Shown here piece by piece: positions 138 through 49,513 of a stretch of DNA of 51,193 nucleotides. Each line of letters begins with the position of its first letter. Position 1 is the first letter of the stretch. The notes under the pieces are model-generated. The model made no database searches, was not told where the DNA came from, and saw only the letters and a list, made by a program, of their open reading frames with translations. This stretch comes from a virus, in IMG/VR virus record IMGVR_UViG_3300020196_000058, positions 1 to 51,193 of that record; one strand, given 5' to 3'. Position numbers and translations under genes: made by a program.

Positions 138-901
138 ACATGGGTCCTAGAATAGTAAGAAGTGGTTTAGTATTGAATTTAGATGCCGCACAAAAAACAA
201 GTTATTCAGGCACAGGAACCGTTTGGAATGATTTGAGTAACAATAATAATAGTTTTATATTGGCGAATTCTCCGACATATTCTAATAATTTTTTTACATT
301 AAATGGCACAACTCAATTCTTTTATATAAGCACTGGTGCTGGTTTTTTTAATTCAGCTGGAAACAATTTTTATGCAGATGTTGGATACGCGTGGAGCATT
401 TCAGTTTGGTTTAAATTTCCAATCTCTCCCACAACAACAAGAAATTCTACAAATAATGGAGGCAATTGTTCTTATTGTATGGTAGGTAATTCAGGCGGTA
501 TTGGTGGTGCAGAAACATTATCACTATTTGTGAGCGGTGGTGACAACACAACAAGTGCTGGATCATTAACTCCATATTTTTGTGTTGTAGGTGTAAGAGG
601 AGCAAAAACTCAGTTATCAGACGGATCTGTAAATACTAATACTTGGAATAATGCGATAGTGACTTGGAATGGATCTGCTGGTAGAGGATATTTTAATGGT
701 GTTGATAAAGGCGCTTTAAATATTGGTGGCGCTGGTATACAAATAAACGGAGCCTATACTATAGGAACAACAGCAGGAGGCAATCAAGGATCTCATACAT
801 ATGAGGGCGATATAGCTTCTACATTGGTTTATAACAGAGCATTAAGTGCAACTGAAATACTTCAAAACTATAACGCCACCAAAGGGCGTTTTGGTTTATA
901 G
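134..901 (+). CDS. LamG/ConA-like lectin-fold virion protein
   Basis: A 255-residue protein with the phage LamG signature: N-terminal GLVLNLDAAQ, then VWNDLSNNNN, a central WSISVWFKF strand, and a C-terminal tail ILQNYNATKGRFGL. This fold (jelly-roll laminin G / concanavalin A-like) usually binds sugars or decorates capsids and tail fibres. The second ATG at 140 (residue 3) is an equally plausible start; the first ATG overlaps the stop of the upstream paralog by 4 bp. It is the middle of three tandem paralogs just upstream of the head-tail connector genes, so a head-decoration or fibre role is likely but not shown. No signal peptide or membrane segment is visible. Confidence 0.75.
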   Translation: MNMGPRIVRSGLVLNLDAAQKTSYSGTGTVWNDLSNNNNSFILANSPTYSNNFFTLNGTTQFFYISTGAGFFNSAGNNFYADVGYAWSISVWFKFPISPTTTRNSTNNGGNCSYCMVGNSGGIGGAETLSLFVSGGDNTTSAGSLTPYFCVVGVRGAKTQLSDGSVNTNTWNNAIVTWNGSAGRGYFNGVDKGALNIGGAGIQINGAYTIGTTAGGNQGSHTYEGDIASTLVYNRALSATEILQNYNATKGRFGL

Positions 902-907
902 TGTAAT
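901..907 (+). promoter_or_regulatory. GTGTAAT box upstream of the third LamG gene
   Basis: GTGTAAT lies in the 18-bp gap after the stop of the previous LamG gene, 12 bp before the ATG at 920. The same heptamer or a one-base variant recurs ahead of other gene groups. It may be a -10-like late promoter element. No Shine-Dalgarno sequence is visible before this ATG. Confidence 0.4.
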
Positions 908-919
908 TTTATTTATATT

Positions 920-1966
920 ATGGCTACAGTGGGAGGACCAAGAATTGTTAGAAGTGGACTGGTTTTGAATTTGGATGCGGCACAAAGAACTAGTTTTACA
1001 CTTCCCATAATTGTATATAGCGTGCAGTGTTATTCTGTATATGGTGGTGGACTAAGAAGCGCTAACTATACTGTGCAATATAGTGATGATAATTCTACAT
1101 GGACAACTGCTTTTACAGGCGTGATGAGTAATAATTCTTCTTGTGGAATCATCACTGGTACTGGCGTCAACACTAGTGATTTAACTCCGCACAAATATTG
1201 GAGATATGTAGAAGGATCGGCTGTTGCGGGACATCATCCTAGAGTATCTAGGATAGATTTTATTACTTCGGCTGGAAGTATAATTAATCTTGTCACATAT
1301 ACGTCTGATAACTGCGCTGATTCGGGTACATATATAGTTGGAACTGTTAGTAAAGATTTTGGTCCATCAACTTGGAACGATCTTAGTGGTAATAGAAATA
1401 ATGGTACATTTTTTAATAATTTAACATTTAGTTTTGCAAATGGAGGAACCATTGTATTTGATGGTCTTAATGATTATATAACATTTTCGAGTTCTCAACT
1501 CGCTCCGGGTACAGGTGCTTTTACTTGGAATTTTTGGTGTAAATTAAATGATTTTTCAACTTATTCTATTCTTTTTTCTGGAACTGGTTCTAATACCAAT
1601 TATGGTGTTATATTTCTTAATCCAACAAATGGTAGTGCTGGATTAGGTTATTATGCTTTGGGCAATCGTATACAAGATGATAATACATCATTTGGTTCAA
1701 ATTGGTGGTGCATAACTTTTGTAGGAAATGGAGGTGCTAATGGATCCAGAAATTTAAAGTTATATAGAAATGCAGTGCAAGCTGGAAGCACTTATACATA
1801 TGATTATAATTTCACTTCTTCTACGCCAATCGTTGGGACGAATCATGACTCTTATAATGAAGTAATGAGGGGAAACATTGCTAATTTTTCGTATTATAAC
1901 AAAGCTTTATCTGCTTCTGAAATTTTACAAAACTACAATACCACAAAAGGCAGATTTGGGTTGTAA
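920..1966 (+). CDS. LamG lectin-fold protein with inserted discoidin-like domain
   Basis: A 348-residue paralog of the preceding gene. Residues 1-25 (RIVRSGLVLNLDAAQ) and about 150-348 (TWNDLSGNRNNGT, FTWNFWCKL, ILQNYNTTKGRFGL) form the LamG fold. Between them, at roughly residues 26-148, is an extra domain containing YTVQYSDDNSTWT, KYWRYVEG and a following HPRVSRIDF strand. This is the pattern of F5/8-type-C (discoidin, galactose-binding) domains. The insertion sits between the first and second LamG strands, so the protein probably carries two sugar-binding modules. The start ATG has no clear Shine-Dalgarno but follows a GTGTAAT box. A virion surface, glycan-binding role is inferred. Confidence 0.7.
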   Translation: MATVGGPRIVRSGLVLNLDAAQRTSFTLPIIVYSVQCYSVYGGGLRSANYTVQYSDDNSTWTTAFTGVMSNNSSCGIITGTGVNTSDLTPHKYWRYVEGSAVAGHHPRVSRIDFITSAGSIINLVTYTSDNCADSGTYIVGTVSKDFGPSTWNDLSGNRNNGTFFNNLTFSFANGGTIVFDGLNDYITFSSSQLAPGTGAFTWNFWCKLNDFSTYSILFSGTGSNTNYGVIFLNPTNGSAGLGYYALGNRIQDDNTSFGSNWWCITFVGNGGANGSRNLKLYRNAVQAGSTYTYDYNFTSSTPIVGTNHDSYNEVMRGNIANFSYYNKALSASEILQNYNTTKGRFGL

Positions 1967-9517: not shown

Positions 9518-12500
9518 ATGGCTACTTCATCAGGTTCAATAACTATTAGCGCGACGATTGATACTTCCGCTGCGGAAAGAGATGTTTTAGCAGCGTTACG
9601 TCGCATAGAAAGAAAAAGTACTCTTAATTTAAATACCAAGAACTTTTCTCAACCTTTAGGCAGAATCACTGGGCAAGCAGATGAGTTTCAAAAGTCACTT
9701 GAAGCTTCAAATGCTCGTGTTGTAGCATTCGGCGCTTCAGCGGGTATTATTTATAATGTTGAAAAAGCTTTTTCTGCTTTAATTTCCAGCACTATAGAAG
9801 TAGAAAAATCTCTTACTGACATTAATGTAGTATTAAATTCTTCTACTAAAACTTTAACTCAATTTGGTGATCAATTATTTAATGTCGCAAAACAAACTGG
9901 TTCTTCTTTTAATCAAGTAACTGAAGCTGCAATTGAGTTTTCCCGTCAAGGTTTATCGTTAGAAGATACTTTAAAAAGGACTAGAGACGCTCTTATTTTA
10001 ACTCGTCTTGCCGGTTTAGATGTCGTTTCTAGTACTGAAGCATTAACTTCAGCAGTTAACTCTTTTACAAAAGAAGCGCTAACAACAACTGATGTCGTTA
10101 ATAAATTAGCAGCAGTTGACGCAAAGTTCGCTGTTAGTTCAAGAGATCTTTCTGAAGCGGTCAAACGTGTAGGTTCTTCTGCGAGTGAAGCAGGAGTAAG
10201 TTTTGATGAGTTATTAGGTATTGTAACTTCAGTTCAGCAAACTACTGCTCGTGGTGGTGCTGTCATTGGTAACGCATTAAAAACAATATTTACAAGAATT
10301 CAAAGACCAGAAGTTATAAATGATTTAAGAGATTTCGGAGTTGCCGTAAAAGATATTGAAGGAAATACTTTACCGATAGTTCAAGTATTAGAAAACTTAG
10401 CAAAATCTTTTGAGGATTTAAATCCAGTTATTAGAGCTCAAGTCGGAGAATTGGTTGGCGGTGTATTCCAAATTAACATTTTAAAAGCTGCATTATCTGA
10501 TTTATCTAAAGAGAATTCTATTTTTCAAGCAGCGACTTCTGCATCTAATAAAGCAATTGATGATGCAATTATTAAAAATAACGCTCTAAATAAAAGCATC
10601 ACAGCTTTAGTTAATGAAGCTAGTGTTAATTTAGTTCAATTTGGCAAAAATATTGGTAATGTAAGCGTCGGTCCCGGAATTAAAAATTTAGTAGGTATTT
10701 TAAATGATTCTCTTAATCAAATTAATGAAAAGAGCGGGGAAAGTGTTGGAGCTAAAATTGGATCAGGATTATTAAAAGGAATTACTAGTTTTATAACTGG
10801 TCCCGGTTTAATTTTGGGTAGCGTTGTTTTAGGTAAATTATTCGGACGTTTTGCCGGATTTACTGCTGACGCTACTAAAAATCTCCTTGGTTTAAATAGC
10901 GTATCTCAACAAAGAGGAAAACTTGAAGAATCAATTAAAGGAATTCTGCAATCAAATCCTGCTATAATAGGTCAATTAATTACTGGCGAAAAAACTCGTC
11001 TTCAAATCGAAAAAGAAATAAGAGATGTTTTAATTCAACAGTCTAGTTTAGCGGAGAGTATAAAAAATACATCAGAAAGTTTTAGTAAGTCTTTTATTGC
11101 TTCCGGAATGGGTGTAAATGCATCAAATCTTGTAGTTTCTAATAGATTGGCCCCCACTAGGAGGACTTCAAAAGGCTTTTTGCCTAATTTTTCTGATTCG
11201 ATGGCTTCACAAATGACTTCTGAAGTTTCAGAAGCTACAAAGTTAGGAGCTAAAAAGGGAGTTAGAGCTAGACTAAGCGAAGGAACTATTGGCGGCAAAA
11301 AATTTATTTTAAATACAGACGAAAAAGAATTTGTGGGAGTTGGTCGCAATGGAGATTCAATGGTGATTCCAAAGTATGGCGGCGGAATGGAAAAAGCTAT
11401 TGGAATGATGAAGTCTGGTAAAATGGGATCTATTCTTGGTGGTAGCAATTCAGGAATGTCATTTGATGGGTTTATTCCTAATTTTGCTCAAGATGATGAA
11501 GAGTCTGGGGGCTTTGGACCTAAACAATTTAGAGACTACATGAGGAAAATAGGAAAAGCTTATCGTGTCGATAAAATTATAAATAAACAAGGAAAAAAAG
11601 TTGCTGGCCCTCTTACTTGGAATTTATCAGATAAAAATTATTTTACAAATCTTAAACCACAGGAATTAGAGGAATTTCAAACAGATTTACAAGGTTTTCA
11701 AAAAGAATACAATACTAGTTATCTTCCAACTGGTTATGCAAACTATTTAAGAGCTATTACAACACAAATAAATAGAGAAGAAAGAAAGGGTAACCGATCT
11801 AAATCTTCTATTCCCGTACCAGAAAAATTATTAGATGAACCTACAATTAATGCTGCTGTTCTAGTAGCGACGATGGAAACTTTTAAAAATTTTATTCAAT
11901 CTAATTATCCGGCTGAATCACAACAAAAACAAGCCATTTCAAAGAAACTAAGAATAATAAATGATCAGTTAAACACTGCTACAAAATTACAAAAAGAAGG
12001 CAAGCCTGTACCTGTTCAATTATCACAAAGACTAGAGCGATTAAAAAAGTTTGAAAAGTTATATCAAAAACAGGAAGGCATTGTTTCTCAAGTTCCAGCA
12101 AAAGCTTTCGGAGCAAAATATGAAGATTTCGCTTTAAAATATTTAAAAAATTCTGCATATCCAGATATAAAATCTGCTAAAGAAATTGGATTGTTTGGAA
12201 CTGGTGGAGAAGAAACTACAGATGTCGACGCTGTAGATACAGTAAAAAGAGCATTTTTTGAATTTAAAGCTGGTGGAATTGAAATAGATAAAACTAATAA
12301 AAAATTTAAAAACGTCAGAAGTAGACCAGAGAATTGGCCGCTTCTTTTGGGTGTTAAATTTAGTGATGTTTTTGATCAAATAAAAGGTCCATGGCAAGAT
12401 ATTTTAGTATCTAATAATTTAAGAGATCCTATATATAAATTTAAAGGCAATAAACTTTTGCGTTTGCCTTCTGAAGGAGGCACTCAAGACAAAAGACTTT

Positions 12501-15500
12501 ACGCAAATGTTCCAAGTCAAAGAAGAGCAGATCAAAGAGCTGCCGCCATAAGTCCATTCAGTGGAAGTCTTACTGAATTTATTGATGAAGAGTATTCCAG
12601 AATCATGATGGAAAAACCTAAAGCATATTCAAAAGGTTTTATCCCTAATTTTGCGGCTACTAAATTTGATAAATTTAAACTAAATGATCGCTTAGTAATG
12701 GCTTATGGAAAGAAAAATGATCCTGAATCCATAGCAAAATATTTAGTTAACATTGGAAGAATAGATCCTATTTTAGATAAAGCTACTAAAAATCCAATTT
12801 TAGATTCTAAAGGTTCACCAGTAGTAAAATTTTCAGGATTTACAACTAAGTATGGCGCTGATGGATATCAAAACTTAATAAGACATTTTAGAAGTGATGG
12901 AGTTTTAGATTACAGAATTGTTCCATCAAATGATGAAAAGAGCATTACTTCTTATTTGAGACAAATTAGATTATCTGATTTTTCTAAAGGGTATATTCCT
13001 AATTTTGCAGATAACAATTTAAAAGATTTATTAACTGAAGCAAAATTAAAATCTTTTTCTTCGCCAGAAGATTTATATTTATGGTTGACACGTTTAAGTC
13101 AAGAAAAAGGTTTACGAATTAAAAGAGGATCATCTAGAATTGGAATTGCTCTTGATGATAAAATGTTTTTAAAAATTGCAGCTAACAAAGCTGGAATTGC
13201 TCAAAATTTTGTTGAAAATAGAATTTTAAATGATCGATCTGCTAGAGAAAGATATTCTGATATTTTACCAGAAATTTTTGCTTCAGATAATAGAAAAAAT
13301 CTTTGGAGTATCACAGAAAGATTAAACGATGTCCAAGAGTTAGATGGTTTCAAAAGACCAAGACCATCTGAACAATTACTTGGCAAACCCGCTAGCCATT
13401 TCATGCTTTTTTCGCCTTATTCAGATCTTGAAAACCAAATATTAAAATTTGGAGAGGAATACGATATTGACGTGTCTGATTTTTTTGGAGGTAGAAATAT
13501 TGGTTTTACTAGAACAAGTAGTCCAAAACTTAAATTAATGGATTTAGGTTTCACCGAAAGAATCGCTAAAGCTTTTTATCGACAAGGAAGAATTCCAGAA
13601 CTCGGACGCTTTGATAAAGGTTTTATTCCTAATTTTAGTTCTTCTGATGCTTTACAACAGTATTTAAATAATTTTGATTCTCAAACTGTTTCTGAATTTT
13701 CAAACACTAATATCCGTGGGGGTCGCGGTATGAGTGTATTGTCAGCCAGAGTAAAATTTGTTAAAGATCTATTAAACATTAATCCAGATCTTAAAGCAAA
13801 AGAATTAGTTCAAATTTTAAACGAAAGAAGAACTAAAGGAGTTAATGTCAATTTTACAGAAAAATCTATACCATTTGGGCCAGAAGAAGCAAGAAGATTA
13901 ATCGCTAAAGTTCGAAACAGTAGAACTAAATCAATTGATTATTTAGGTAGACCATCTGTTTCTGGAATTTCTCCAGAAGATTTTAGTAGTGGCTTTATTC
14001 CTAATTTTGCTTTTTCCGACTTAGGAACTGGAGCTGTAATACAAAATGATAATAATTATGGAGGACCCTCTGGACGAGCAAGATATTTAACTTTTTCAAA
14101 ACTTAAAAAAGAAGGAATATTTAAAAAATATATTAATTATTTCAAAACCTACGAGTCAGTTGACAAATATATTAACAGGGATGCGCCGAAATATTTTAGA
14201 AATTTTTTTATGCCTAATGGCTCAGTTCCAAAAGATAAAGAACTAGAAGTTTTTGGTAGAAAATTAACAAATGACGAGTCTGATTTTTTTAATGATTTTT
14301 TTTCAAATGGTGATTTTATAGGAACTAGTAGATATCTCAAAGCATTTTTTCCCAAAAATGATCGTTTTTATAAAGATCCATTGGAAAAATCTATTTCTGA
14401 TAGACTTCCGCGTACTCAAGATTATTTTATTAATGAAGATATACAAGACAGATTTAAGAAAACTTTGATTTTTCCTGATGTAAGAAAATCTTACTTAGCT
14501 TTCTTAAAAGAACGTTCTATTCGTCGAGGAATTTTTGTAGATAGTGATCCAGCAATTTTTTTTGAATTTGCTTTGCAAAATGATAAATTGAAAGATGTAG
14601 CTCAAAAAATTAGATCAATGGCACCGCCAATTACTTCTAAAGATTTACAAAAACAAGCCGAGTTCTTTGATAGTCCAGAAAAAGTAGATAAAGATTTGCT
14701 TACTCAGCTTGCGGAATTTGATAGAGATGAAAAATTTTCTTTTTCTGTATTTGGAAGTGTTAAAAAAGCCCCTTTTAATAAAAAGTCTACCGATAATATA
14801 CTTTTTCAATCTTTATATGAAAATTTTAAAGATATAGATGCAGGAGAAGTATTTAATATTCCTAGTTATATTCTACATTCAGGAATACGAGGTTTAGATA
14901 GAGCTATTTATCTAGAATCTAGAAGCCCGCTTGAAGCTTTTAAAGAAGTGACGAATAAGAAAGTGTTAAATTCTAATAAAGAAGTTGTTGATTATTTAAA
15001 ATGGCGAATTTCTAGACCTTCTCCAAGCGAACCAATTGATTTATCTCCTGAAATAACAAAATTTCTTTTTAAAAACGACTATGGTTTATTAAAAAAATCA
15101 CGTTTTGTAAAATATGATTTGGAAAATAGAAAAATAATTGATTTTTTAGTTAAAAATAAAAATTCCATACAGTTTGAAAAAACATTTGCTGAATATGGAG
15201 CAGCAGGACAACAAAGACAATACACATATATAGATTTAATAAATAATTTAACAGAAGCTGATTTACCAAATGGAGATAAAACTTCTCTCCCAAAAGCTTT
15301 TGAAAGTGTTAAAACTAGATTATCAGAACAAGCTAGACAACAAATCGAGAAAAAAATCGCTGTTTCTAATAGGACTTTTCCAATAATACCTCACTTAAGT
15401 AAAGAAACGGATAGAGTAAAAATATTAAAAAATGAAAAATCTTTATATGAAGAAGGAAATAGAATGGATCATTGCGTTGCTGGCTATGGAGACGCATGTT

Positions 15501-18500
15501 CTAATATTGATACGAAAACAGGATTACCTAAAAGCTTAATCGTTTCAACTGGAACGGCAACTGCAGAATTAAATCCTCAAAGAAAAAGAATAATACCAAA
15601 TTCTGATTTTAACACTAGGCAAAATCGCGCTGAAATAAGAAATTTTATTAAAAGCCTCAAGTATCACGCTACTTCTTTAGGCAAATCCAGCACCACCACC
15701 GCAATGGCGGAGTTGATGGCTGAAAGGAGCATGATAGCGGAGGAGGTAAGATTAAATACAGTTAAATCTTATTTGCAATTGAGAAAAGCAAGAAAAGGCC
15801 CACCTTTATATTCAATAGATGCTTATCAAATAAAAGGAATTAGAAATAAAAATCCATCGCAAGAAGATTTAGAGTTGTTTCGCGATTTTGTAAGAAAAAA
15901 TGGGTTGCAGCCAAACTTTGCTTCTGGTTTTGTTCCTAATTTTGCGAAATTTAAAACTTTTTTAGGAAAAGGATTTATTCCAAATTTCAATGCCGTTCGA
16001 GAAGCTATTAATAGAGAAATGGACGCTGGCTTTTCAGCTTCCCAAGTTAAAATCGGACAAAGTAATTCTTTAAAAACTTCATTTAATCCTCAAGGACTTG
16101 GAGTTTATAATACGGTCCAAGAACCCGGCGGTTTAAATCAGGGCATGGCATTTGCGCGTGAAGCCGGAATCAATCCTAAAACAAAAGGAATGAGTTCTGG
16201 ATTTGTACCAAATTTCGCAGAAGGAGGATTTGATAGATTTGATGTTACTTTAATTGCAGCGACTTTAATTGGGTTAAATACTCAAATTCGAAGTGTTATT
16301 GACGCTTTTAAAAACATTAAAGAATCTGTAAAAGCAGTTAACTCTGCTTTAGCAGAAGATGTAAAAGGGATTAGAAAATCAGCTGCAGAAAGAATAAATG
16401 AATTAAATAGTCAACTTAAAGCTGAGAAAACTGTTAGAAATCAAAGTATTGATGCTGCAAAACAAAATATTTCTGATTTAAAAAAGCAAAGAAAAACAGA
16501 GAAGGCTGCTCTTGATGCTTCTACTAAATTACGTGCAGGTCTTGGTCTTGGCCCTGATCCAGCGGAAAATACTAAATATTTAAGTTCATCTCGCGCAATA
16601 GGAAAACAGATAAGGCAACAAGAACAGTTAATAAAAAATGAAAATCTAGCAATACAAACTTCAACTGCGGATTTTGTAACTAAATCTAAAGAAATTGGCG
16701 CAAAATCAAAAATATTAGAATCTGAAAAAATTGCCGAAGCAGCATCGAAAACCACTACAAAAGCGAAAGCTGATACTTTAATTAAAAATGCAGGGTTCGG
16801 GGTTGGTTTGATTGGCGCGGGAGTCGCTAATATAGCTGAACAATTTATCCCTCAACAAAATTTTCAAGCTAGAGCATTAACTTCTGGAGTGGGAGACGTA
16901 TTCTCTTATGCTGGAACAGGAGCGGCTTTTGGTCCAGCAGGAGCAGCTGCTGGAGCGCTTTTGGGAATTGGTATTGCTGCTAAAAAAGTTGTTGATTCTA
17001 ATTTAGAAGAATATATTTATAAAATTGGTAAATCTATAGATTTAATCAGAGATAAAACTAATACTTTTGCTAATGCATCTCAAGGTTATTCATCTTCATT
17101 AGAGCAATTAAAAACAGCATTAAATGATCCTAATGCTAGACCAGATGCTTTAATTAGATTTCAAAATTTAATTCAAGAATCATTAGGACAAATTCCTGAT
17201 GAGTTTAGACAAAAAGTTTTAGCGGCGGGATCTGATTTAACAAAAATAGCAGAAGCTATTTCTGATGTTAATAAAGAATTAGGTAGATCACAGCAAAATT
17301 TAGAATCAGTAAGTAGCGTTTTGCAACTTATATCAAATAATAAAGGTTTCCTTTCTTATTTTGGATCCGCAATACAATTAAGATCTAATGATCAACAATT
17401 ATTAAACAGAAGTTTCACAAGAAATATTAATCAACAAGATTTAACAAAAAGATTTGGCAACCAACAAGATTTTGACAAATTTATTTCTCGATTATCAGGA
17501 GAATTGTTTACTACATATCAGTCAGGAAGAGGCTTGCAGGCTAACGCTCCTCAAGTATTAAATTTAAGAAATTTAAATAAAGTCGAAAGTTTACTTGGTT
17601 CTCAGGGTTTGCTAACTCCAGAGTTGGCATCAGCTTTTAAAAAAGCAGCTGAAAATTTTGATATCAAAGTTATTCGTGGACTTGTTTCATCTCTTCGCGA
17701 ACTCGGCATTACTGCTTTCGCAACCAAAGAAGAAGCCGCTAATTTAACTTCAATTCAAACAGATAATGTAAAAAAGAATAAACAAGCTGCCGAAGCATTA
17801 AGACTTTTAAATCAACAGTATACAAATTTAAATTTTCAACTTTCTCAACAAATTCAAATTGAACAAAATAGATCATCTGCTATTAGAGATATAAATAAGA
17901 TATTTTCTGAAGGAGTTATTAATGTTCAAAGATCAAGAGTTAAAAATTTATTAGAAGTATTTTCACCATTTATCACAGATCAACAACGCAATAATATCCA
18001 AGGTCAATTAGATTTAAATGAAATTACCACTCGTCAAAATTCACAAATTCGAGACGCATTAAATAAAACCTTAGATTCTTTTAATGAAAGTTTAACTTCT
18101 AAAATAAAAGAAATAACAGATCAAGCAATTGGAGTTACTGCTGATTTAAATAGAGAACCAAATCAAATTGTAAAAGATACCAATTTATTTATTAATAATC
18201 TTAGTAAATTAAGTAATTTAGCTAGTCAAGGCTTAGAGGCAGCAAGAGGCGGAGTAAACGTTTCTAACGTACGAGATAAATTAGCTCAAGAAATTCGAAG
18301 TACTGCTACTTTAACTGGAGGTCAACAAGAAGTTCTTATACAACAATTAGAGAAAGAATTTGCTTCTTTTCAAAATGAATTAGCGCGTATTAAAGCTCAA
18401 GGTGAGGTAGATTTGCTTTTACAAAAAAGTCAAGTTGATTTTCAAAGAAAAACTTACGAATTAAATCAACGTTTAAGTTTTGCAGGTGGTGGTCGAGCAC

Positions 18501-21457
18501 TAGCTTCAACAGGAAGATTAGGAGTTTCTGATCTTTATGATAGCATTGCTGATTTAGTTGGAGAACTTAGGCAAAATAATGCAATAGGTAATAGAGGTGA
18601 AAATATTTCCCTTTTGGGATCTAGTGTTTTTAAACTTTTAGATACCTTAACTAATCAATTACAGTTAAATAGAGCAACTACTTCTCCAATTCCTTTTGTT
18701 AGTCCAGAAAGCTTTAATAAAGCTGTATCTGATCAATTGCGTCCTTTAACTGCAATTTCTATCGCAGGAAGAACTAGTCAAATTAGAGAATCTCTTAATT
18801 TAGCTAGACAAACCACTGAAGCTCAAATCGGATCAATTGGAAAAGAAAGTCCATTAGCTTTAGCATTTAAAACTGCTAATGAAAATGCAGTAGGCACAGC
18901 GTTGTTACAGATTTCTTCAGAACTTAAATTACAAAATATTGGTACTTATTTAGATATTTTACAAGAAGAGGCAGGAATTTTAAATCAATTAACTAATGAG
19001 CAAACAAATTATTTAAAAGAACAAATTCCAAATTTAAATAAAAATTTTGCTAGTGTAATTCAAAAAAATGTAAAAGATCAATTAATTACAGTCAATAAAA
19101 CTCTAGAAAGTAAACTGACGGAATTAATTATTGCCACTAAAGAAGCTGATATAAATAAACAAATTAGAGATTTAATACCTTCTAATGTGCCATTTAATGA
19201 TAGAGAAAAGTTTTTACAAGAAATTAAAGATTTGCAAAAGGGGATTTTTAACTTAAATACAAATTTACCCCCAGAAACAGCGCAAGCATTTCAAAAAGTC
19301 ACGAATAATTTGTTGCAGCAAATTCCTCAAAGTACTTTTACTCCTAGTGGTGGATTTGGAGGTAATAATAACCAATCTAAAGATGTACAAATTAGTGATA
19401 TTGTTCGAAGATATTCTGGAGTAACCTCGGGTACTGTTGAATCAATACTTGAGCTACTTAATAAATTTCAAAAATTTTCAACTTCTGTAACTGCAAAACC
19501 TTTAGATAAAAAACAAAATATTGCTTATTTAGAAGGACTAATGGCAGATGCTTTAAAAAATTCTATATATTATGAAAAACTTTTAAATAATAATTCATCT
19601 AATCAACAGCCCGATAAACCAACAGATCCTAATGAAAGAATTCAAAGCTTAAGACAACAATTAAAAGGTTTAAATTTACAAACTGAATTTTATTTACAAT
19701 CCAATACAGAATTAGTCAAGTTACAAGAAGAAGTTAATGAAATTTTAGCTGAAGGAGTTCAAACTAAAGAACAACAAGAAAAACAATTACAAATTCAACT
19801 TAAAATTAGAAAGAAAGAATTAGACTTAGAACTTGCAACTACTAAAGATAGAGAAAAACTTTTATATGAAACCGCATACGGAAGAAATTTCTTTAGAGAA
19901 GAAAAACAAGCAGCTGCTGAAGCAAGAATTACAGCTGAAGCTCGACAAGGAAATGTACCAGTAGGTTCAATTGTTAGATCTGTTTTTGAATATGGACCAG
20001 CTGATGCCGCAAAAGATACGGGGGATACTTTAAAAATATTACTTACTGATTTTAAGACAGGAATTGCTGGCGCATTTAGCGAAGCTATAAAAGGAACTAA
20101 AACACTAAGAGAAGCTTTTTCTGATTTCTTTCAATCTTTATTAAATAGATTAACTGATAGAGCTACCGCTCAGTTGGTTGATACAGTTTTAGGAGCAGCA
20201 CAAAAAGGATTTTCCTCTTTCAATTTTGGAACAGGAAATGCATCGGCATCTTCAGATGGTGCATATACAGCAGGAGGAGTTAATACTGTAACCGGAGCTG
20301 GAGCTAAAAAATACGGCGGCTTAATTAAAGGTTATAACTTTGGCGGTTTAGTAACTGGTGGATCAGGATTTAGAGATGATGTGCCAGCTATGATGAGCGG
20401 CGGCGAATTTGTTATTAAACAAAGCTCTGTTAAAAAATATGGCGCTGATTTCTTAGATCAATTGAATAGTGGTCAAATTCAAACTGCTGCTGATGGTGGT
20501 TCATTCTCAGTTGGTCCAATGAGAAATGAATTTCTCTACAATGATCCAGAACGTCCAACTTCAGGGGAATATTCAGTTGATCCTCGTTTGTCTGCTTTTG
20601 CATTAACTGATGAAAATAATCCTCAAAATAAAATCAGAGAACAGCGTTTTGAGGAATTAGATAGATACTTACAGGATCGCGACCAGTATGAAAAAGATAG
20701 AAAAAAAGCCATCAGTGATTTTAATAAAAAAGTTCAAAGTGTTTTTAATCAAGCTTTAATTGCTGCAGCTATTCAAATTGTTGCATCTACTGCTGCCGGT
20801 TACGCTTCTAAAGGGGGTGGTGATACCAAAACTGAACCACCTGCGAAAAATGCTAAAGGAGGTCTTATTCCAAAATTTGCTTTTGGCGGTGCGGTTAGAA
20901 AACTAAAAGCGGGTGGAATGGCGGGCAAAGATAATATACCCGCATTGCTAATGGGCAATGAATATGTAATGAGCCCAGAAGCTACTAAATATTATGGTAC
21001 TCAATTAATGAGCGATTTGAATAAAGGAACCTTTAATAGAGTTGGTGCTCGCACAAGATTTGCTGAAGGAGGTTTAGTTGGTAGCGGTTCTTCTGTAAGT
21101 TATAGAGGTAATGCTGTAAATAATAACTTTGATGAATTGGTTGTTGCAATAAATACTTTAAATGAAAGTATAAGTAAGAGCAATGGTATTACTCAATCTG
21201 AAACTGGTGGTGTATCTCCAAACTTTAATGCTCAAGGGCAACTTGCTACAAGTTCTATTGTAAATAATATCTCTGTTAATGTTTCTTCTGGAAATGTTTC
21301 GGCTACTTCAGAAACAAATTCAGACAATAAAAATTCAAATCAAAATCAAAACTTGCAAAACAATCAAAAACTTGCTGAATTACTCAAAGGTAAAATTGTG
21401 GAAGTTATTGTCGAACAAAAGAGACCCGGAGGTTTATTGGCTAGCGTTAAGCCTTAA
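9518..21457 (+). CDS. Giant tape measure protein carrying an array of passenger domains
   Basis: 3,979 residues. Residues about 1-360 are the classical tape measure core (IIYNVEKAFSALISSTIEVE, ARGGAVIGNALKTIFTRIQ, LVGGVFQINILKAAL). Residues 553-2234 hold repeats of the motif GF[IVL]PNF[AS] separating globular segments: a PD-(D/E)XK nuclease-like domain (about 860-1010), a kinase-like domain (1165-1367) and a PcfJ-like domain (about 1960-2128). Residues about 2255-2400 are coiled-coil, 2425-2490 hydrophobic (possible membrane insertion), then mostly helix to two C-terminal units with GEFV / NEYV motifs. Fully extended helix (about 0.15 nm per residue) would give about 600 nm; without residues 559-2228, about 350 nm. 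Start follows AAGGAA. The TMP sets tail length and is ejected at infection; delivery of the passengers is inferred. Confidence 0.92.
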   Translation: MATSSGSITISATIDTSAAERDVLAALRRIERKSTLNLNTKNFSQPLGRITGQADEFQKSLEASNARVVAFGASAGIIYNVEKAFSALISSTIEVEKSLTDINVVLNSSTKTLTQFGDQLFNVAKQTGSSFNQVTEAAIEFSRQGLSLEDTLKRTRDALILTRLAGLDVVSSTEALTSAVNSFTKEALTTTDVVNKLAAVDAKFAVSSRDLSEAVKRVGSSASEAGVSFDELLGIVTSVQQTTARGGAVIGNALKTIFTRIQRPEVINDLRDFGVAVKDIEGNTLPIVQVLENLAKSFEDLNPVIRAQVGELVGGVFQINILKAALSDLSKENSIFQAATSASNKAIDDAIIKNNALNKSITALVNEASVNLVQFGKNIGNVSVGPGIKNLVGILNDSLNQINEKSGESVGAKIGSGLLKGITSFITGPGLILGSVVLGKLFGRFAGFTADATKNLLGLNSVSQQRGKLEESIKGILQSNPAIIGQLITGEKTRLQIEKEIRDVLIQQSSLAESIKNTSESFSKSFIASGMGVNASNLVVSNRLAPTRRTSKGFLPNFSDSMASQMTSEVSEATKLGAKKGVRARLSEGTIGGKKFILNTDEKEFVGVGRNGDSMVIPKYGGGMEKAIGMMKSGKMGSILGGSNSGMSFDGFIPNFAQDDEESGGFGPKQFRDYMRKIGKAYRVDKIINKQGKKVAGPLTWNLSDKNYFTNLKPQELEEFQTDLQGFQKEYNTSYLPTGYANYLRAITTQINREERKGNRSKSSIPVPEKLLDEPTINAAVLVATMETFKNFIQSNYPAESQQKQAISKKLRIINDQLNTATKLQKEGKPVPVQLSQRLERLKKFEKLYQKQEGIVSQVPAKAFGAKYEDFALKYLKNSAYPDIKSAKEIGLFGTGGEETTDVDAVDTVKRAFFEFKAGGIEIDKTNKKFKNVRSRPENWPLLLGVKFSDVFDQIKGPWQDILVSNNLRDPIYKFKGNKLLRLPSEGGTQDKRLYANVPSQRRADQRAAAISPFSGSLTEFIDEEYSRIMMEKPKAYSKGFIPNFAATKFDKFKLNDRLVMAYGKKNDPESIAKYLVNIGRIDPILDKATKNPILDSKGSPVVKFSGFTTKYGADGYQNLIRHFRSDGVLDYRIVPSNDEKSITSYLRQIRLSDFSKGYIPNFADNNLKDLLTEAKLKSFSSPEDLYLWLTRLSQEKGLRIKRGSSRIGIALDDKMFLKIAANKAGIAQNFVENRILNDRSARERYSDILPEIFASDNRKNLWSITERLNDVQELDGFKRPRPSEQLLGKPASHFMLFSPYSDLENQILKFGEEYDIDVSDFFGGRNIGFTRTSSPKLKLMDLGFTERIAKAFYRQGRIPELGRFDKGFIPNFSSSDALQQYLNNFDSQTVSEFSNTNIRGGRGMSVLSARVKFVKDLLNINPDLKAKELVQILNERRTKGVNVNFTEKSIPFGPEEARRLIAKVRNSRTKSIDYLGRPSVSGISPEDFSSGFIPNFAFSDLGTGAVIQNDNNYGGPSGRARYLTFSKLKKEGIFKKYINYFKTYESVDKYINRDAPKYFRNFFMPNGSVPKDKELEVFGRKLTNDESDFFNDFFSNGDFIGTSRYLKAFFPKNDRFYKDPLEKSISDRLPRTQDYFINEDIQDRFKKTLIFPDVRKSYLAFLKERSIRRGIFVDSDPAIFFEFALQNDKLKDVAQKIRSMAPPITSKDLQKQAEFFDSPEKVDKDLLTQLAEFDRDEKFSFSVFGSVKKAPFNKKSTDNILFQSLYENFKDIDAGEVFNIPSYILHSGIRGLDRAIYLESRSPLEAFKEVTNKKVLNSNKEVVDYLKWRISRPSPSEPIDLSPEITKFLFKNDYGLLKKSRFVKYDLENRKIIDFLVKNKNSIQFEKTFAEYGAAGQQRQYTYIDLINNLTEADLPNGDKTSLPKAFESVKTRLSEQARQQIEKKIAVSNRTFPIIPHLSKETDRVKILKNEKSLYEEGNRMDHCVAGYGDACSNIDTKTGLPKSLIVSTGTATAELNPQRKRIIPNSDFNTRQNRAEIRNFIKSLKYHATSLGKSSTTTAMAELMAERSMIAEEVRLNTVKSYLQLRKARKGPPLYSIDAYQIKGIRNKNPSQEDLELFRDFVRKNGLQPNFASGFVPNFAKFKTFLGKGFIPNFNAVREAINREMDAGFSASQVKIGQSNSLKTSFNPQGLGVYNTVQEPGGLNQGMAFAREAGINPKTKGMSSGFVPNFAEGGFDRFDVTLIAATLIGLNTQIRSVIDAFKNIKESVKAVNSALAEDVKGIRKSAAERINELNSQLKAEKTVRNQSIDAAKQNISDLKKQRKTEKAALDASTKLRAGLGLGPDPAENTKYLSSSRAIGKQIRQQEQLIKNENLAIQTSTADFVTKSKEIGAKSKILESEKIAEAASKTTTKAKADTLIKNAGFGVGLIGAGVANIAEQFIPQQNFQARALTSGVGDVFSYAGTGAAFGPAGAAAGALLGIGIAAKKVVDSNLEEYIYKIGKSIDLIRDKTNTFANASQGYSSSLEQLKTALNDPNARPDALIRFQNLIQESLGQIPDEFRQKVLAAGSDLTKIAEAISDVNKELGRSQQNLESVSSVLQLISNNKGFLSYFGSAIQLRSNDQQLLNRSFTRNINQQDLTKRFGNQQDFDKFISRLSGELFTTYQSGRGLQANAPQVLNLRNLNKVESLLGSQGLLTPELASAFKKAAENFDIKVIRGLVSSLRELGITAFATKEEAANLTSIQTDNVKKNKQAAEALRLLNQQYTNLNFQLSQQIQIEQNRSSAIRDINKIFSEGVINVQRSRVKNLLEVFSPFITDQQRNNIQGQLDLNEITTRQNSQIRDALNKTLDSFNESLTSKIKEITDQAIGVTADLNREPNQIVKDTNLFINNLSKLSNLASQGLEAARGGVNVSNVRDKLAQEIRSTATLTGGQQEVLIQQLEKEFASFQNELARIKAQGEVDLLLQKSQVDFQRKTYELNQRLSFAGGGRALASTGRLGVSDLYDSIADLVGELRQNNAIGNRGENISLLGSSVFKLLDTLTNQLQLNRATTSPIPFVSPESFNKAVSDQLRPLTAISIAGRTSQIRESLNLARQTTEAQIGSIGKESPLALAFKTANENAVGTALLQISSELKLQNIGTYLDILQEEAGILNQLTNEQTNYLKEQIPNLNKNFASVIQKNVKDQLITVNKTLESKLTELIIATKEADINKQIRDLIPSNVPFNDREKFLQEIKDLQKGIFNLNTNLPPETAQAFQKVTNNLLQQIPQSTFTPSGGFGGNNNQSKDVQISDIVRRYSGVTSGTVESILELLNKFQKFSTSVTAKPLDKKQNIAYLEGLMADALKNSIYYEKLLNNNSSNQQPDKPTDPNERIQSLRQQLKGLNLQTEFYLQSNTELVKLQEEVNEILAEGVQTKEQQEKQLQIQLKIRKKELDLELATTKDREKLLYETAYGRNFFREEKQAAAEARITAEARQGNVPVGSIVRSVFEYGPADAAKDTGDTLKILLTDFKTGIAGAFSEAIKGTKTLREAFSDFFQSLLNRLTDRATAQLVDTVLGAAQKGFSSFNFGTGNASASSDGAYTAGGVNTVTGAGAKKYGGLIKGYNFGGLVTGGSGFRDDVPAMMSGGEFVIKQSSVKKYGADFLDQLNSGQIQTAADGGSFSVGPMRNEFLYNDPERPTSGEYSVDPRLSAFALTDENNPQNKIREQRFEELDRYLQDRDQYEKDRKKAISDFNKKVQSVFNQALIAAAIQIVASTAAGYASKGGGDTKTEPPAKNAKGGLIPKFAFGGAVRKLKAGGMAGKDNIPALLMGNEYVMSPEATKYYGTQLMSDLNKGTFNRVGARTRFAEGGLVGSGSSVSYRGNAVNNNFDELVVAINTLNESISKSNGITQSETGGVSPNFNAQGQLATSSIVNNISVNVSSGNVSATSETNSDNKNSNQNQNLQNNQKLAELLKGKIVEVIVEQKRPGGLLASVKP
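12095..12547 (+). other. Embedded PD-(D/E)XK nuclease-like domain in the tape measure protein
   Basis: TMP residues about 860-1010, in the segment between the motif copies at 651 and 1040. The order of candidate catalytic residues fits the restriction-endonuclease fold: E869 in AKYEDFALKYL, D902 and D904 in TTDVDAVD, then E915-x-K917 in FFEFKAGG. A strand-turn-strand with Asp followed after about 11 residues by ExK is the core signature. Family assignment is by motif only; the flanking residues 658-860 are helical and unassigned. Confidence 0.55.
13010..13618 (+). other. Embedded protein-kinase-like domain in the tape measure protein
   Basis: TMP residues 1165-1367, bounded exactly by motif copies at 1158 and 1368. 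Kinase-fold features in order: a lysine in a beta strand (K1219 in MFLKIA), a helix-C-type glutamate (E1233 in IAQNFVEN), an Asn (N1327) and a DFG-like DLGF at 1342-1345. No clear HRD catalytic loop is visible, so it may be a pseudokinase or a divergent phosphotransferase. Confidence 0.5.
15395..15901 (+). other. Embedded PcfJ-like domain in the tape measure protein
   Basis: TMP residues about 1960-2128, ending at the motif GLQPNFA. It has the PcfJ-family pattern: an acidic-Gly lead-in (LYEEGNRMDHCVAGYGD, with H1985-C1986), a strand TGTATAEL, and a later strand AYQIKGIRNKNPS. About 80 residues appear inserted between the last two strands. PcfJ proteins are known from conjugative elements and phages; their biochemical role is not established. 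Confidence 0.5.
20342..21028 (+). repeat. Two C-terminal GG..D.(V/I)PA.(M/L)..(G/N)E(F/Y)V units in the tape measure protein
   Basis: Residues about 3609-3652 and 3790-3837 share the pattern GGxV-(x)n-GxxDxxPAxxxGxExVxxxxxxKYxGxxxxxxLNxG. Such units are common at TMP C-termini, which face the head-distal end of the tail. The linker before the second unit also carries GLIPKFA, a relative of the GFIPNFA motif. Confidence 0.65.
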
Positions 21458-31076: not shown

Positions 31077-31080
<4 letters not shown>

Positions 31081-31817
31081 AGTAGATTGTGCCTCATTGT
31101 ATAAATTACCCATTTTTTCTGAAGTCTGGAAAGTCTTTCCTCTTTAGAGATGCTGTTTCCAGGATGATGTAAAACTTTATCTCCTCCTAAAAAAATCATA
31201 CAATGTATTGGAAAATTATAATTAGCAGTTCTTGTTATAAGAATATCATTCTTTTTGGGGCTTTCGACTCCTTTAAAACCGTTTAACTCAAAATATTTTT
31301 TTAAATAATCACTTCTAGTTTTAAGAAAATCTACTTCGTTAATACATCTTTGTTTTACTAAAATATCGTATTCCTCTTGCGAGGCATTATTTTTAATTAT
31401 TTCTTGCTCGGAAGCTAAATCTATATTTAAATTATACGAATAGTAATCTTTGACTAGCCATAAACAATCTGCGAAACCTAAAACGAATGGTCTTTCTGTA
31501 TATTGAATTTTTAAACCATTTGGATTATATTGATGAAATGTATTAGAATTTTTATTATAAACAATACAGGGCAACCCTAGTCTTTCTGAAACTATTTCGT
31601 CTTCTCTAGAAATGCGATCATAATCAATATGAGAATGATAATAAGCAACAGTGTCTCCATCTATTCCTTCCATCATGAATTGTGTTGCTGAATTTAATAT
31701 ATTTTCTTTTTTTTCAATTACTAAGATATCGCCTTGCATTTTTATAAAGCCGCAAACTTCATTTGGGCTAGATAATGCATGATTTATTATTTCATGTTTA
31801 ATTTCTAAATTTAACAT
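31077..31817 (-). CDS. Tail-tip peptidase K paralog 2 (JAB/MPN + NlpC/P60)
   Basis: 246 residues. N-terminal JAB/MPN metallopeptidase domain: E20 in PNEVCGF, then H61-S-H63 with S70 and D73. The spacing between HxH and SxxD is six residues instead of the canonical seven. C-terminal NlpC/P60 domain: catalytic C118 in FADCLWLV and H205 in FPIHCMIFLG. Lambda K has the same two-domain layout; the NlpC part cleaves peptidoglycan peptides during entry. It overlaps the upstream K-like gene by 7 bp and the I-like gene by 4 bp. It is a diverged tandem duplicate of its neighbour. Confidence 0.85.
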
Positions 31818-32566
31818 AGTTGTTTATGTCTTGCGAAACAATATATTCTTCTTTTCTCTGGATTTGAAAGTTTTTCTATCAAAGATTGCTTGTTTCTTGG
31901 TTGATGTAAAATATGATCGTTGCCTAAGTAAATTCCAAAATGAGAAGGGTAATTGTCTAAATATTTAAATATTATGATATCATGTTTTTTAGCTTTTTGT
32001 ATTTCATCTATTTTAATAAAATTTTCTTTAGCAAGAAATTCGTCAAAGTTTTTATTATTTGTGAAACAAGAAAGTTTATATTCTATGAAATCTTTGTAGT
32101 TTTTATCCCAGTTTTCATGTCTTTCATAGTGAAATATTTTTAATCCAAATTCTTCATTATAATATTCTTCGATAATAGATAAACAATCTGATTGATTAAT
32201 TTTGAATTGTTTATCTGTATATTTAGAAAAATAATTTTCTGGGCAATATTCTTCGAATTTATTTTGTTTGTGAATATAGACTATGTTTTTTAAATTTAAT
32301 CTGTGGCTTATTTGTTTGTCTAATTCTGAAAATGAATTATCTTGAATACAATGAGAATGATAAATACCAATTATTTTACCATTTCTAGAAGCTTTTAAAT
32401 AATCTTTTGGATTTATTATAAATTCATTAACTTTGTCTATAGCGGTATTTTGGGCATTTAGTATTTTTAGACAATTATCTTTTATATAAAGTAATCCGCA
32501 GCATTCATTTGGATAATCTTTAATTGCATGCTCTTTGATAGCATTTTTTATTTCTTCATTAACCAT
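31811..32566 (-). CDS. Tail-tip peptidase K paralog 1 (JAB/MPN + NlpC/P60)
   Basis: 251 residues. The JAMM zinc site is complete: E21 in PNECCGLL and H70-S-H72-x7-S80-x-x-D83. The NlpC/P60 domain has C128 in QSDCLSII and H209 in YPSHFGIYLG, followed by ILHQP. Between the two, about 80 residues are helical. The protein would act in the periplasm-facing tip as a peptidoglycan endopeptidase, with a JAB protease or scaffold half. It starts at a TAATG overlap with the L-like gene and overlaps the second K-like gene. Two K genes in a row is unusual for lambda-type tails. Confidence 0.87.
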   Translation of the reverse strand: MVNEEIKNAIKEHAIKDYPNECCGLLYIKDNCLKILNAQNTAIDKVNEFIINPKDYLKASRNGKIIGIYHSHCIQDNSFSELDKQISHRLNLKNIVYIHKQNKFEEYCPENYFSKYTDKQFKINQSDCLSIIEEYYNEEFGLKIFHYERHENWDKNYKDFIEYKLSCFTNNKNFDEFLAKENFIKIDEIQKAKKHDIIIFKYLDNYPSHFGIYLGNDHILHQPRNKQSLIEKLSNPEKRRIYCFARHKQLC

Positions 32567-46924: not shown

Positions 46925-49513
46925 TCAAGTATTTTTGTCTGCTTTTAGTTGAGAAAGTTTTGTGTAAACTTTATGGGTTTGAATAGCTACAGTTTTCGCA
47001 AAAACTGAGTCAGTAAATTTTTGACCAATTACGATAACAATATCTTCTTCTTCTGGAACTTTATTATTTAAAGACTGCATTAGGTCAATATTTTCTGAAA
47101 AAACCATTGTGTTGATGCTAGCAGTCTCATCCGAGATTTGCATTTTAAAATATCTCGTTTTCTTTTCTCTAGAAACACCCATCTTGCATTCTTTAACTAC
47201 TCCAATGAATGCTACATAGTCTTTTTCTGGAAATCTCTCGATGTCTTTTATAAAGACTAAATCGTCTTTTTTGCTTATAAATACATCTCTCAGTTTATTT
47301 TTAACACTGTATCCAATAATTGAATTTTCATAAAACCAATTAGCAAAACTTTCTGATTTACTATTTAGCTCATAAATCTTTTTGTATGGATCAGCTTTTT
47401 TCCTTAATGTATCAAGTCTAGACTCTTTTATATAAAGTTTACCTTTAGCATCTTTAGCTTGAGTTAAATGAATAACTATCTTTACTAAATCATATTCAAA
47501 CTGTTCAGCAAATAATTTTGCGTTGACTTTTTCTTTTTCAGTAAGAAGATTCCATAACTGAGCTTCATAGACTAATTTACTTCTAGACTGCTTAAAGTCT
47601 CCATCTAAAGCTCCTGCCTGAATAAGAGCACACAAAACGCCTATGTTCAAACTTACTTGAGATGCTGTTTCAAAAATATCAAATTTGTTTTTAAATTCGC
47701 CTCTGAATTGATTTACAGCAGTTATGGTTTTCTCACTAATTCCTTTTACAGATAGAAGCCCAAATCGAATATCATTATTTTCTATAGAGAATTCTTCTTT
47801 TGATTTTAATAAGTGAGGAGGAAGAAGTTTAATGTTAAAATAAGCTAATTCTTTTTCAATTTTAGAAATTTCTCCAATAGGATCTGGCTCATGCTTGCTC
47901 ATCTTGAGCAAAGACAAAAAGAATTGTTGAGGATACTTGAACTTTAAGTAAATAGAAATAGCGGCCAATGCTGCATATGCAACTGAATGAGATTTATTAA
48001 ATTGATAATTAGCTGAATCATTTGCAATTCTCCAAAGGATTTCGCCAATTTTAGGATCAAGTTTTTGTTGGGAGATTTTATCTTTAATTTTTTGCTCCCA
48101 TTCTTTCATTTCATCAACTTTCTTTTTGCCAACGCAGCGGCGGACAATTTCTGCTTCATCAAGAGAAAAGCCCACTTTGCTAACCATCTTCATTAATTGC
48201 TCTTGATAAAGACATACACCTCCAGTAACGCCAAGAATATCGTCAAAAAAAGGATGAATGCTTTCGTAATGATCGTTATTAGTGTAGTTCGCATATTGAT
48301 CTATAAATTGAAGCGCACCGGGGCGAGCCAAAGCTAGAACACCGCTTAATTGCTCTAAATTTTTTGGCTTTACTTTTTGGCAAACTTTGAAATTTGTTTC
48401 TGCTTCAATTTGAAATAGCCCATGAGGATTTCTCAATTCTTGAAGCTTTTGATAAATAAAATTATCATTAACATCAATATCCTCATATTTAATACCTAAA
48501 GACTTACATACATCATCTACAACAGAAACTCCTCTTAATCCAAGAAGATCAAGTTTAACGTTGTACGCAGTTATATTGTTCATGTCATAACTTGATACAA
48601 CTTGTTTGTCAGAAGAAAGTTCTGTTGGACAAGATTGTTCTAGTTCTGAGTGAGAAAGTAGTAATCCAGATGGATGAACTCCTTTATTTTTAATTAAGTT
48701 TTGTAGTTTTAAAGCTATCTTGTAAACTTCTGTGTTTTCTTCTGTCCATTTTGCAAATTTTTCGGATTCAACAACAGCTTCTTCAAGACTTCTTACTTGT
48801 CCGAAGAGTTTAGGAATGAATGAAGACACATCATTCATTTCGGCTTCCTGCTTTTCAGCTACTGTCTTCCCCGCTTCTTTTATGCAGAGTTTGGAACTTA
48901 AAGTATTAAGTGTTAAAATTTTGGAAGTTTTACCCTTAAATTTTTCTTCAAGATAGTTAATTACTTTAGATCTATTATAATAGCAAATATCAAGGTCTAC
49001 ATCAGGAAACAAAGAGCCATCAAAATAGGTAATACCATCAATAATAGTCTTTTTTGCTCTTGCTTTTGAAATAAATCTTTCAAAGAACAAGTCGTATTTG
49101 ATTGGATCAATTTTAGTAACATCAATTAAAAACAAAATTAATGATCCTGCACAAGATCCTCTTCCGGGGCCAGTTGGAATATTTGTTTCTCTGCAATAAT
49201 TTACAACATCCCAAATCAAAACGATATAATCAATAAATTCAAGTTCTGTAAGAATGTCTAATTCATATCTAGCTCTATCGATATATTTTTTTTGAATTTC
49301 AGAACCTTTAGGTAGATTTAATTTTTTAAATCCTTCTCTTGCTAGTTCTCTTAAAAATTCAAAATTAGAAGCTGAACTTGATAGATTAAGTTTAGTCTTA
49401 TGCTTTTCTTCAATATCGAACACAGGCATTCGAAGCCCATGTAATCCTAAATCATATTTCTGAAATGACTCGATGAAGTTTAAATTGCTATTTGAAATTT
49501 CAGCTTGTTCCAT
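46925..49513 (-). CDS. dnaE: Family C DNA polymerase (DnaE-like alpha subunit), lacking the PHP domain
   Basis: 862 residues. Core motifs are intact: TGPGRGSCAGSLILF (about 112-126), catalytic D171 and D173 in FPDVDLD, and the third Asp D322 in KLDLLGL. The fingers and thumb region follows (PHGLFQIEAETNF, ARPGALQFI, GGVCLYQEQLMKM, NKSHSVAYA), then an OB-fold near the C-terminus (FIGVVKECKMGVSREKK, QISDETASINTMVFSE). The N-terminal PHP domain is absent; it is encoded separately two genes upstream, with an exonuclease gene in between. The start at 49513 overlaps the exonuclease ORF by 34 bp. It is the replicative polymerase of the phage. Confidence 0.9.
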   Translation of the reverse strand: MEQAEISNSNLNFIESFQKYDLGLHGLRMPVFDIEEKHKTKLNLSSSASNFEFLRELAREGFKKLNLPKGSEIQKKYIDRARYELDILTELEFIDYIVLIWDVVNYCRETNIPTGPGRGSCAGSLILFLIDVTKIDPIKYDLFFERFISKARAKKTIIDGITYFDGSLFPDVDLDICYYNRSKVINYLEEKFKGKTSKILTLNTLSSKLCIKEAGKTVAEKQEAEMNDVSSFIPKLFGQVRSLEEAVVESEKFAKWTEENTEVYKIALKLQNLIKNKGVHPSGLLLSHSELEQSCPTELSSDKQVVSSYDMNNITAYNVKLDLLGLRGVSVVDDVCKSLGIKYEDIDVNDNFIYQKLQELRNPHGLFQIEAETNFKVCQKVKPKNLEQLSGVLALARPGALQFIDQYANYTNNDHYESIHPFFDDILGVTGGVCLYQEQLMKMVSKVGFSLDEAEIVRRCVGKKKVDEMKEWEQKIKDKISQQKLDPKIGEILWRIANDSANYQFNKSHSVAYAALAAISIYLKFKYPQQFFLSLLKMSKHEPDPIGEISKIEKELAYFNIKLLPPHLLKSKEEFSIENNDIRFGLLSVKGISEKTITAVNQFRGEFKNKFDIFETASQVSLNIGVLCALIQAGALDGDFKQSRSKLVYEAQLWNLLTEKEKVNAKLFAEQFEYDLVKIVIHLTQAKDAKGKLYIKESRLDTLRKKADPYKKIYELNSKSESFANWFYENSIIGYSVKNKLRDVFISKKDDLVFIKDIERFPEKDYVAFIGVVKECKMGVSREKKTRYFKMQISDETASINTMVFSENIDLMQSLNNKVPEEEDIVIVIGQKFTDSVFAKTVAIQTHKVYTKLSQLKADKNT

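Follow-up and report, generated by a model that had tools for sequence, protein, structure and literature searches.

A short peptide motif delimits exchangeable domains in the tape measure proteins of uncultured tailed phages

The tape measure protein (TMP) encoded by the virus record IMGVR_UViG_3300020196_000058 (IMG/VR; all 51,193 nt were analysed and are called the window here) raises the question of why a tail ruler should carry a series of unrelated domains in its interior, separated by copies of one short motif, GFIPNFA. Comparison with other motif- or TMP-bearing contigs, which are labelled by L-numbers (L008, L021 and so on), demonstrated at the sequence level that this architecture recurs and that whole domains are gained, lost or replaced exactly at the motif. 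We propose that the protein is probably a tail ruler with a built-in cargo bay, in which the motif-bounded domains form an interchangeable payload.

The motif array in the window TMP

The window protein carries PF10145 near its N-terminus, is very long and lies in tail-gene surroundings, with JAB/NlpC tail-tip and Phage-tail_3 genes recognised nearby by Pfam. It contains nine copies of G[FY][IVL]PNF[ASN], at residues 553, 651, 1040, 1158, 1368, 1492, 2137, 2152 and 2228, in which the final residue is A or S in eight and N in one (residue 2152), and a weaker copy, GLQPNFA, at residue 2129. No match arose in 2000 shuffles of the residues of this protein, the motif was not found in the other listed open reading frames of the window, and the codons vary among the copies. 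A sequence-only reading of this DNA had placed a nine-copy array at 11174-16219 (residues 553-2234), and the coordinates proved exact; it also listed two weaker relatives of the motif, against the single weaker copy, GLQPNFA, reported here. A second IMG/VR record, L008 (70.6 kb), codes for the same TMP over 3885 residues with 99.97% identity, so that a one-off assembly artefact is less likely. The features are as follows, motif copies having been located by motif search.

9518..21457 (+): TMP gene, 3979 aa; PhageMin_Tail and many TMP PHROG matches; near-identical in L008
9884..10444 (+): PhageMin_Tail domain (PF10145, E=1.2e-29), residues 123-309, inside the conserved N-terminal part (residues 1-552)
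11174..11194 (+): motif copy 1, GFLPNFS, residue 553
11195..11467 (+): short module, 91 aa, recurring in other TMPs (segment clustering)
11468..11488 (+): motif copy 2, GFIPNFA, residue 651
11489..12634 (+): cargo 1, 382 aa; helical part, then a predicted PD-(D/E)XK-type nuclease (E869, D904, E915-x-K917), from relatives and active-site signature
12635..12655 (+): motif copy 3, GFIPNFA, residue 1040
12656..12988 (+): cargo 2, 111 aa, no family match in profile searches
12989..13009 (+): motif copy 4, GYIPNFA, residue 1158
13010..13618 (+): cargo 3, 203 aa, tentatively kinase-like, from phrog_4301 and shared residues
13619..13639 (+): motif copy 5, GFIPNFS, residue 1368
13640..13990 (+): cargo 4, 117 aa, no family match in profile searches
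13991..14011 (+): motif copy 6, GFIPNFA, residue 1492
14012..15901 (+): cargo 5, 630 aa, with a PcfJ-like domain (PF14284) at about 15284-15595 (residues 1923-2026)
15902..15922 (+): degenerate motif, GLQPNFA, residue 2129
15926..15946 (+): motif copy 7, GFVPNFA, residue 2137
15971..15991 (+): motif copy 8, GFIPNFN, residue 2152, aligning with the second motif of L009-L013
15992..16198 (+): terminal short module, 69 aa, of a kind that ends most arrays (segment comparison; L096 model)
16199..16219 (+): motif copy 9, GFVPNFA, residue 2228, end of the array
16220..21454 (+): C-terminal TMP part, 1745 aa, without the motif, homologous to L009-L013 (sequence comparison)

Near the C-terminus of the protein (20858-20960, residues 3781-3814) GGLIPKFAFGG is followed by DNIPALLMGNEYVM; the likeness to the motif is slight, and this seems to be a separate element that is widespread among TMPs. 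An origin of the motif as a copy of the C-terminal TMP element FAxGG...DDVPAMLxGGEYVM was considered and dropped, as the likeness is present in only a few TMPs.

Recurrence of the array and exchange of its cassettes

Scanning viral contigs for GFIPNFA-encoding DNA gave at least 120 stretches, from which redundancy and tiny open reading frames were removed. Among the matches listed, at least 99 non-redundant proteins carried 394 copies under a relaxed definition of the motif, strict copies numbered 265 against 0.003 expected, and PhageMin_Tail (PF10145) was matched by all 46 intact N-termini. A second scan, for GFVPNFA, provided a replicate sample of 55 further non-redundant proteins, in which the same profile was matched by 23 of 27 N-termini. 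The array was thereby found in at least about 150 other non-redundant proteins of uncultured phages, nearly all of them TMPs where the N-terminus is present. Their N-terminal region is well conserved (mean column identity 51%), the first motif is typically found at residue 538-650, and the last is typically followed by about 750-1800 residues. The motif has the consensus [AK][AS]xG[FY][IV]PN[FY][AS], with information concentrated at positions -4 to +5 and low outside them; it lies at domain boundaries in linkers rich in Gly, Ala, Ser and Lys, where low model confidence points to flexibility. The number of motifs correlated with the span of the cargo (r=0.97) and far less with the rest of the TMP (r=0.26). 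A tblastn search of 50,697 phage records with the motif arrays gave no significant match among cultured phages, and four of the cultured TMPs related by their N-termini had no [IVLM]PN[FY] anywhere in the TMP region. Contigs with related TMPs and arrays were present in metagenome-assembled genome bins of Halobacteriovorax, Flavobacteriales, Verrucomicrobiales and Neomarinimicrobiota, which is only a hint of the hosts. In the Halobacteriovorax bin, residues 633-2145 of the L138 protein form a GLIPNFA array with several cargos of 140-360 aa to which no family was assigned; in the Neomarinimicrobiota bin, residues 546-1477 of L140 hold at least six drifted separators, G[MHKA][IV]PNYA, and a GNAT-like cargo after residue 640.

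Related TMPs differ by whole cassettes. The proteins of the five contigs L009-L013 are about 67% identical to that of the window over the N-terminus and contain just three motifs; in place of window residues 662-2152 they have about 290 aa with a nuclease-like domain of another kind, and the sequences become homologous again from the motif at residue 2152. The cargo bay measures 1682 aa in the window, the largest of 20 complete TMPs, against about 380-395 aa in L009-L013, while the flanks are of similar lengths. The N-termini of L098, L112 and L021 are 92-95% identical, and yet the three proteins have three different first cargos (a SNase-like domain, an unrelated domain and a domain of the nuclease cluster described below), followed by a second slot of the same family and, in L098 alone, a third. 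DNA alignments among these three break off in the final bases of a motif and resume with the opening bases of the one that follows. One additional motif-bounded cassette distinguishes L129 from L068. L021 and L042, with N-termini 69% identical, share a cargo that is 96.9% identical in DNA from motif to motif; judged from these identities, one cassette was transferred alone and recently.

When all pairs were pooled, 82% of the 844 alignment ends that fell in the bay lay no more than 10 nt from a motif, against 11% of random positions, although the exact percentage is inflated, as a conserved motif stretches an alignment to its far edge and this BLAST-end test partly favours motifs. The homology blocks must still abut the motif, because only then can the motif extend the alignment. 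In the replicate sample the figures were 74% of 127 ends and 10%. The earlier claim of a modular array of independent passenger domains delimited by the motif was therefore upheld, different domains occupying equivalent slots and homology breaking at the motif in both samples; the contrary pattern, in which related TMPs keep the motif in the same helical register with no swapping, was looked for and is not that of the relatives.

The cargo domains

With iterated profiles, the 159 inter-motif segments of at least 100 aa fell into 37 clusters, one of which held 82 of them; single linkage was used to build it, and some members may be strays, such as the third segment of L061 with its cytidylyltransferase-like start. 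Alignment of 30-42 sequences of this cluster gave a near-invariant G..FE...D...K, in the order of a PD-(D/E)XK active site, and a simple PD-(D/E)XK signature was present in 54% of cargos against 16% of shuffled cargos. Most cargos are predicted to be PD-(D/E)XK-type nucleases. Pfam recognised GNAT four times (E=4e-7), SNase (1.9e-9), a cytidyltransferase-associated domain (3.4e-8), HATPase (5e-5) and, weakly, a P-loop domain, and a profile of the SNase cargo matched thermonucleases in the PDB (E=8.7e-7). HAD-like (DWDGT...IVDD), kinase-like and HExxH segments were read from sequence motifs only; the kinase-like and HAD-like profiles found nothing significant among PDB sequences, and scanning the cargos with NCBIfam and PADLOC added little. 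Most arrays also contain short modules of 50-95 aa that have a YNT.[DE]E or YNSAE core and the motif at their end, and the terminal one of L096 was modelled as alpha-beta-beta-alpha with a predicted local distance difference test score (pLDDT) of about 80. In L074, one array segment (428-1939, minus strand) contains both a GNAT-like domain and a HELFH metallopeptidase-like segment, along with an internal GFIPNFL motif.

In the window, the signature of cargo 1 (E869, D904, E915-x-K917) recurs in L106 and L113 as E...VDA...ExK, with ExK as EFK or EMK; the model of this nuclease core is of low confidence. Cargo 3 matched phrog_4301 (function not annotated; E=2.2e-7) and has K, E and D-x-G positions in common with the kinase-like cargos of L038, L058, L068 and L129, part of the kinase set of G-loop, Lys, Glu, catalytic-loop Asn and D-x-G; it had no Pfam or PDB match, and we regard it only tentatively as protein kinase-like. 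Cargo 5 matched PcfJ (PF14284) with 28 bits in the whole TMP and 30.8 bits (E=2.9e-7) in the segment alone, the curated cut-off being 25. This domain presumably fits the mobile-element theme of polyvalent proteins, which are compared with the arrays below. Single-sequence scans for relatives of cargos 1, 3 and 5 found only the near-identical contig. The sequence-only reading had likened three cargos of the window to known families: only PcfJ passed a curated threshold, the nuclease is predicted from relatives and the active-site signature, and the kinase-like assignment is tentative.

Two other sites in the window may be mentioned. At 31077-32566 (minus strand) two adjacent NlpC/P60 genes, one of them also with JAB, form a duplicated lambda gpK-like tail-tip arrangement. 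At 46925-50118 (minus strand) a gene for a DnaE-like DNA polymerase III alpha (862 aa) overlaps an RNase T-type exonuclease gene, and the pair is likely to be a phage replicase with a separate proofreading subunit.

Delivery, the role of the motif and alternative explanations

In the cargo-bay model, a conserved N-terminal domain of about 540-650 aa and a long C-terminal part would flank a bay of serial, unrelated small domains, mostly predicted nucleases. These would travel in the tail lumen together with the TMP, exit alongside it when the phage infects and serve as early effectors inside the host, in nucleic-acid attack, counter-defence or protein modification. According to PMC13277306, where earlier studies are reviewed, TMPs are tail-lumen cargo ejected into the host envelope, and globular domains of TMP-type effectors are proposed there to adapt to the lumen and fold after ejection. 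Together, ejection and this folding proposal point to delivery of early effectors, mainly nucleases, before phage gene expression, and by analogy with TMP ejection such delivery is the most likely function of the arrays. A weaker part of the model is that the motif may be recognised by one conserved phage-encoded partner, which could be a TMP chaperone, the tail tube or hub, or the N-terminal domain of the TMP itself. If the partner treats every linker alike, any domain between two motifs would be legal cargo, and with the same protein motif at every boundary, the DNA behind it would double as a natural recombination seam.

Codon use in the motif is close to background and 183 of the 265 21-mers are distinct, so that mainly the peptide appears to be the selected object. 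In some TMPs most copies have changed together, to GLIPNFA for the most part in L138 and to G[MHKA][IV]PNYA in L140, which suggests one reader molecule per phage. Elsewhere in the TMP the motif does not occur, which speaks against its being a general tube-lining or chaperone site distributed along the ruler. Because of this joint drift and the confinement of the motif to the cargo region, we lean, tentatively, towards a docking or handling tag; a cleavage site and a passive linker or seam are each somewhat less likely roles on the sequence evidence.

Several observations count against these proposals, besides the bias of the alignment-end test. Concerted drift is mild overall (z of about 5 at one position, the second residue), and the proline codon is shared within TMPs above expectation, so some DNA homogenisation is possible. 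Most cargos lack a family match, and the profile of the nuclease cluster found no relative in the PDB. AlphaFold2 gave a mean pLDDT of 56 for cargo 1 of the window (42-row alignment) and 44 for the L096 array (18 rows), and with models this poor the cargo folds rest on sequence. Finally, several folded domains of 150-400 aa in each of several TMP copies would crowd the tail lumen.

An alternative explanation is that the motif is a processing site: a protease of phage or host origin would cut at each copy, in assembly or once the protein is ejected, and release the individual domains. Confinement to flexible linkers at domain boundaries and a motif number that follows the cargo would fit this, as would the embedded peptidases of polyvalent proteins (Iyer et al., 2017, PMC5512222) and the HExxH segment encoded in the L074 array. 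However, the arrays yielded no protease that they all share, the neighbouring JAB/NlpC proteins resemble ordinary tail-tip components, and in our judgement a strict motif with an invariant P-N and aromatic anchors is more binding-like than a typical cleavage site; we consider processing rather unlikely. Another possibility is that the motif does no more than act as a permissive linker and a seam for recombination in an insertion-tolerant region of the TMP, copied along by recombination, with a partner superfluous. Homology blocks that end at the motif and the shared proline codon are in keeping with this, but codons are otherwise at background and most 21-mers are unique, as expected if the peptide is the conserved object, and the P, N, F and G positions are far stricter than a linker requires, so that we doubt it.

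The nucleases might instead be selfish homing elements with motif DNA as their in-frame insertion site, the other domains hitchhiking. About half of the cargos are nuclease-like, and nuclease genes are described at boundaries of genetic exchange between phages in the part of PMC10448857 considered. The other half are not nuclease-like, though, some arrays contain no member of the nuclease cluster and several stack two to four of them, and the motif is conserved as peptide rather than as DNA, which makes homing very improbable. Ordinary divergence of the variable middle of long TMPs, the domains being functionless degenerate remnants, would be our last choice and is scarcely credible: uneven rates can mimic TMP mosaicism (PMC10684548), but not easily a 97% identical cargo beside 69% identical N-termini, conserved catalytic signatures and enzymes that Pfam recognises.

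The cargo-bay arrays extend known themes, those of polyvalent proteins and of TMPs with enzymatic domains. Polyvalent proteins (Iyer et al., 2017, PMC5512222) are likewise large and multidomain, are proposed to be co-injected with DNA and overlap in repertoire (GNAT, metallopeptidase, nuclease), whereas here the carrier is the tail ruler, with a single short conserved motif as the separator between domains. As in polyvalent proteins, several distinct effector-type domains lie in one polypeptide. Against the domains typical of that family (MPTase, ART, MTase/helicase and LPD domains), GNAT and an HExxH segment were seen in the relatives and PcfJ in the window, and Pfam listed no match to LPD, MTase or ART. 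The likeness to polyvalent proteins drawn by the sequence-only reading thus holds for the cargo repertoire, but the main text of Iyer et al. (2017) mentions neither tape measure proteins nor PcfJ. The contractile injection system effectors Sle1 and Tme, as treated in the part of PMC13277306 used here, also place exchangeable domains on a TMP-like coiled-coil carrier inside the tail tube, yet they belong to bacterial nanomachines and have a single C-terminal functional domain, with no separator array apparent there, in contrast to the several internal domains of a phage TMP. DUF4157, the partner of effectors of this type, had no match among 13 window proteins scanned with Pfam, and the tail genes recognised are phage tail-tip genes. 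PMC13277306 also cites a peptidoglycan hydrolase motif in the TMP of mycobacteriophage TM4 (Piuri and Hatfull, 2006), an enzymatic function embedded in a TMP, but one that is described as acting on the cell wall only and without swappable motif-bounded cassettes. The MuF polymorphic toxins of temperate phages (PMC5576092) similarly combine a phage protein with variable effector domains and proposed phage delivery, but on a packaging-module carrier with a toxin domain rather than a TMP with an internal array. A search of the open-access literature, which is no proof of novelty, found no published description of such motif arrays in TMPs.

A systematic study of phage protein shuffling saw mosaic signals in TMPs and confirmed no genuine recent case (PMC10684548); the cassettes described here are recent cases of that kind. 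The wider proposal is that in a widespread class of uncultured tailed phages the TMP is a general effector magazine, in which a conserved tail partner reads the GFIPNFA peptide code and accepts whatever domain lies between two copies as cargo to be loaded and delivered, and payloads are interchangeable by single recombination events; we advance this as conceivable, with some reserve. It suggests the tail ruler itself as a route by which phages may deliver enzymes ahead of gene expression. With the motif as a simple handle, candidate early effectors and anti-defence enzymes could be located and delimited by the hundreds in metagenomes, and it offers a testable tag for studying how tails load and unload cargo.

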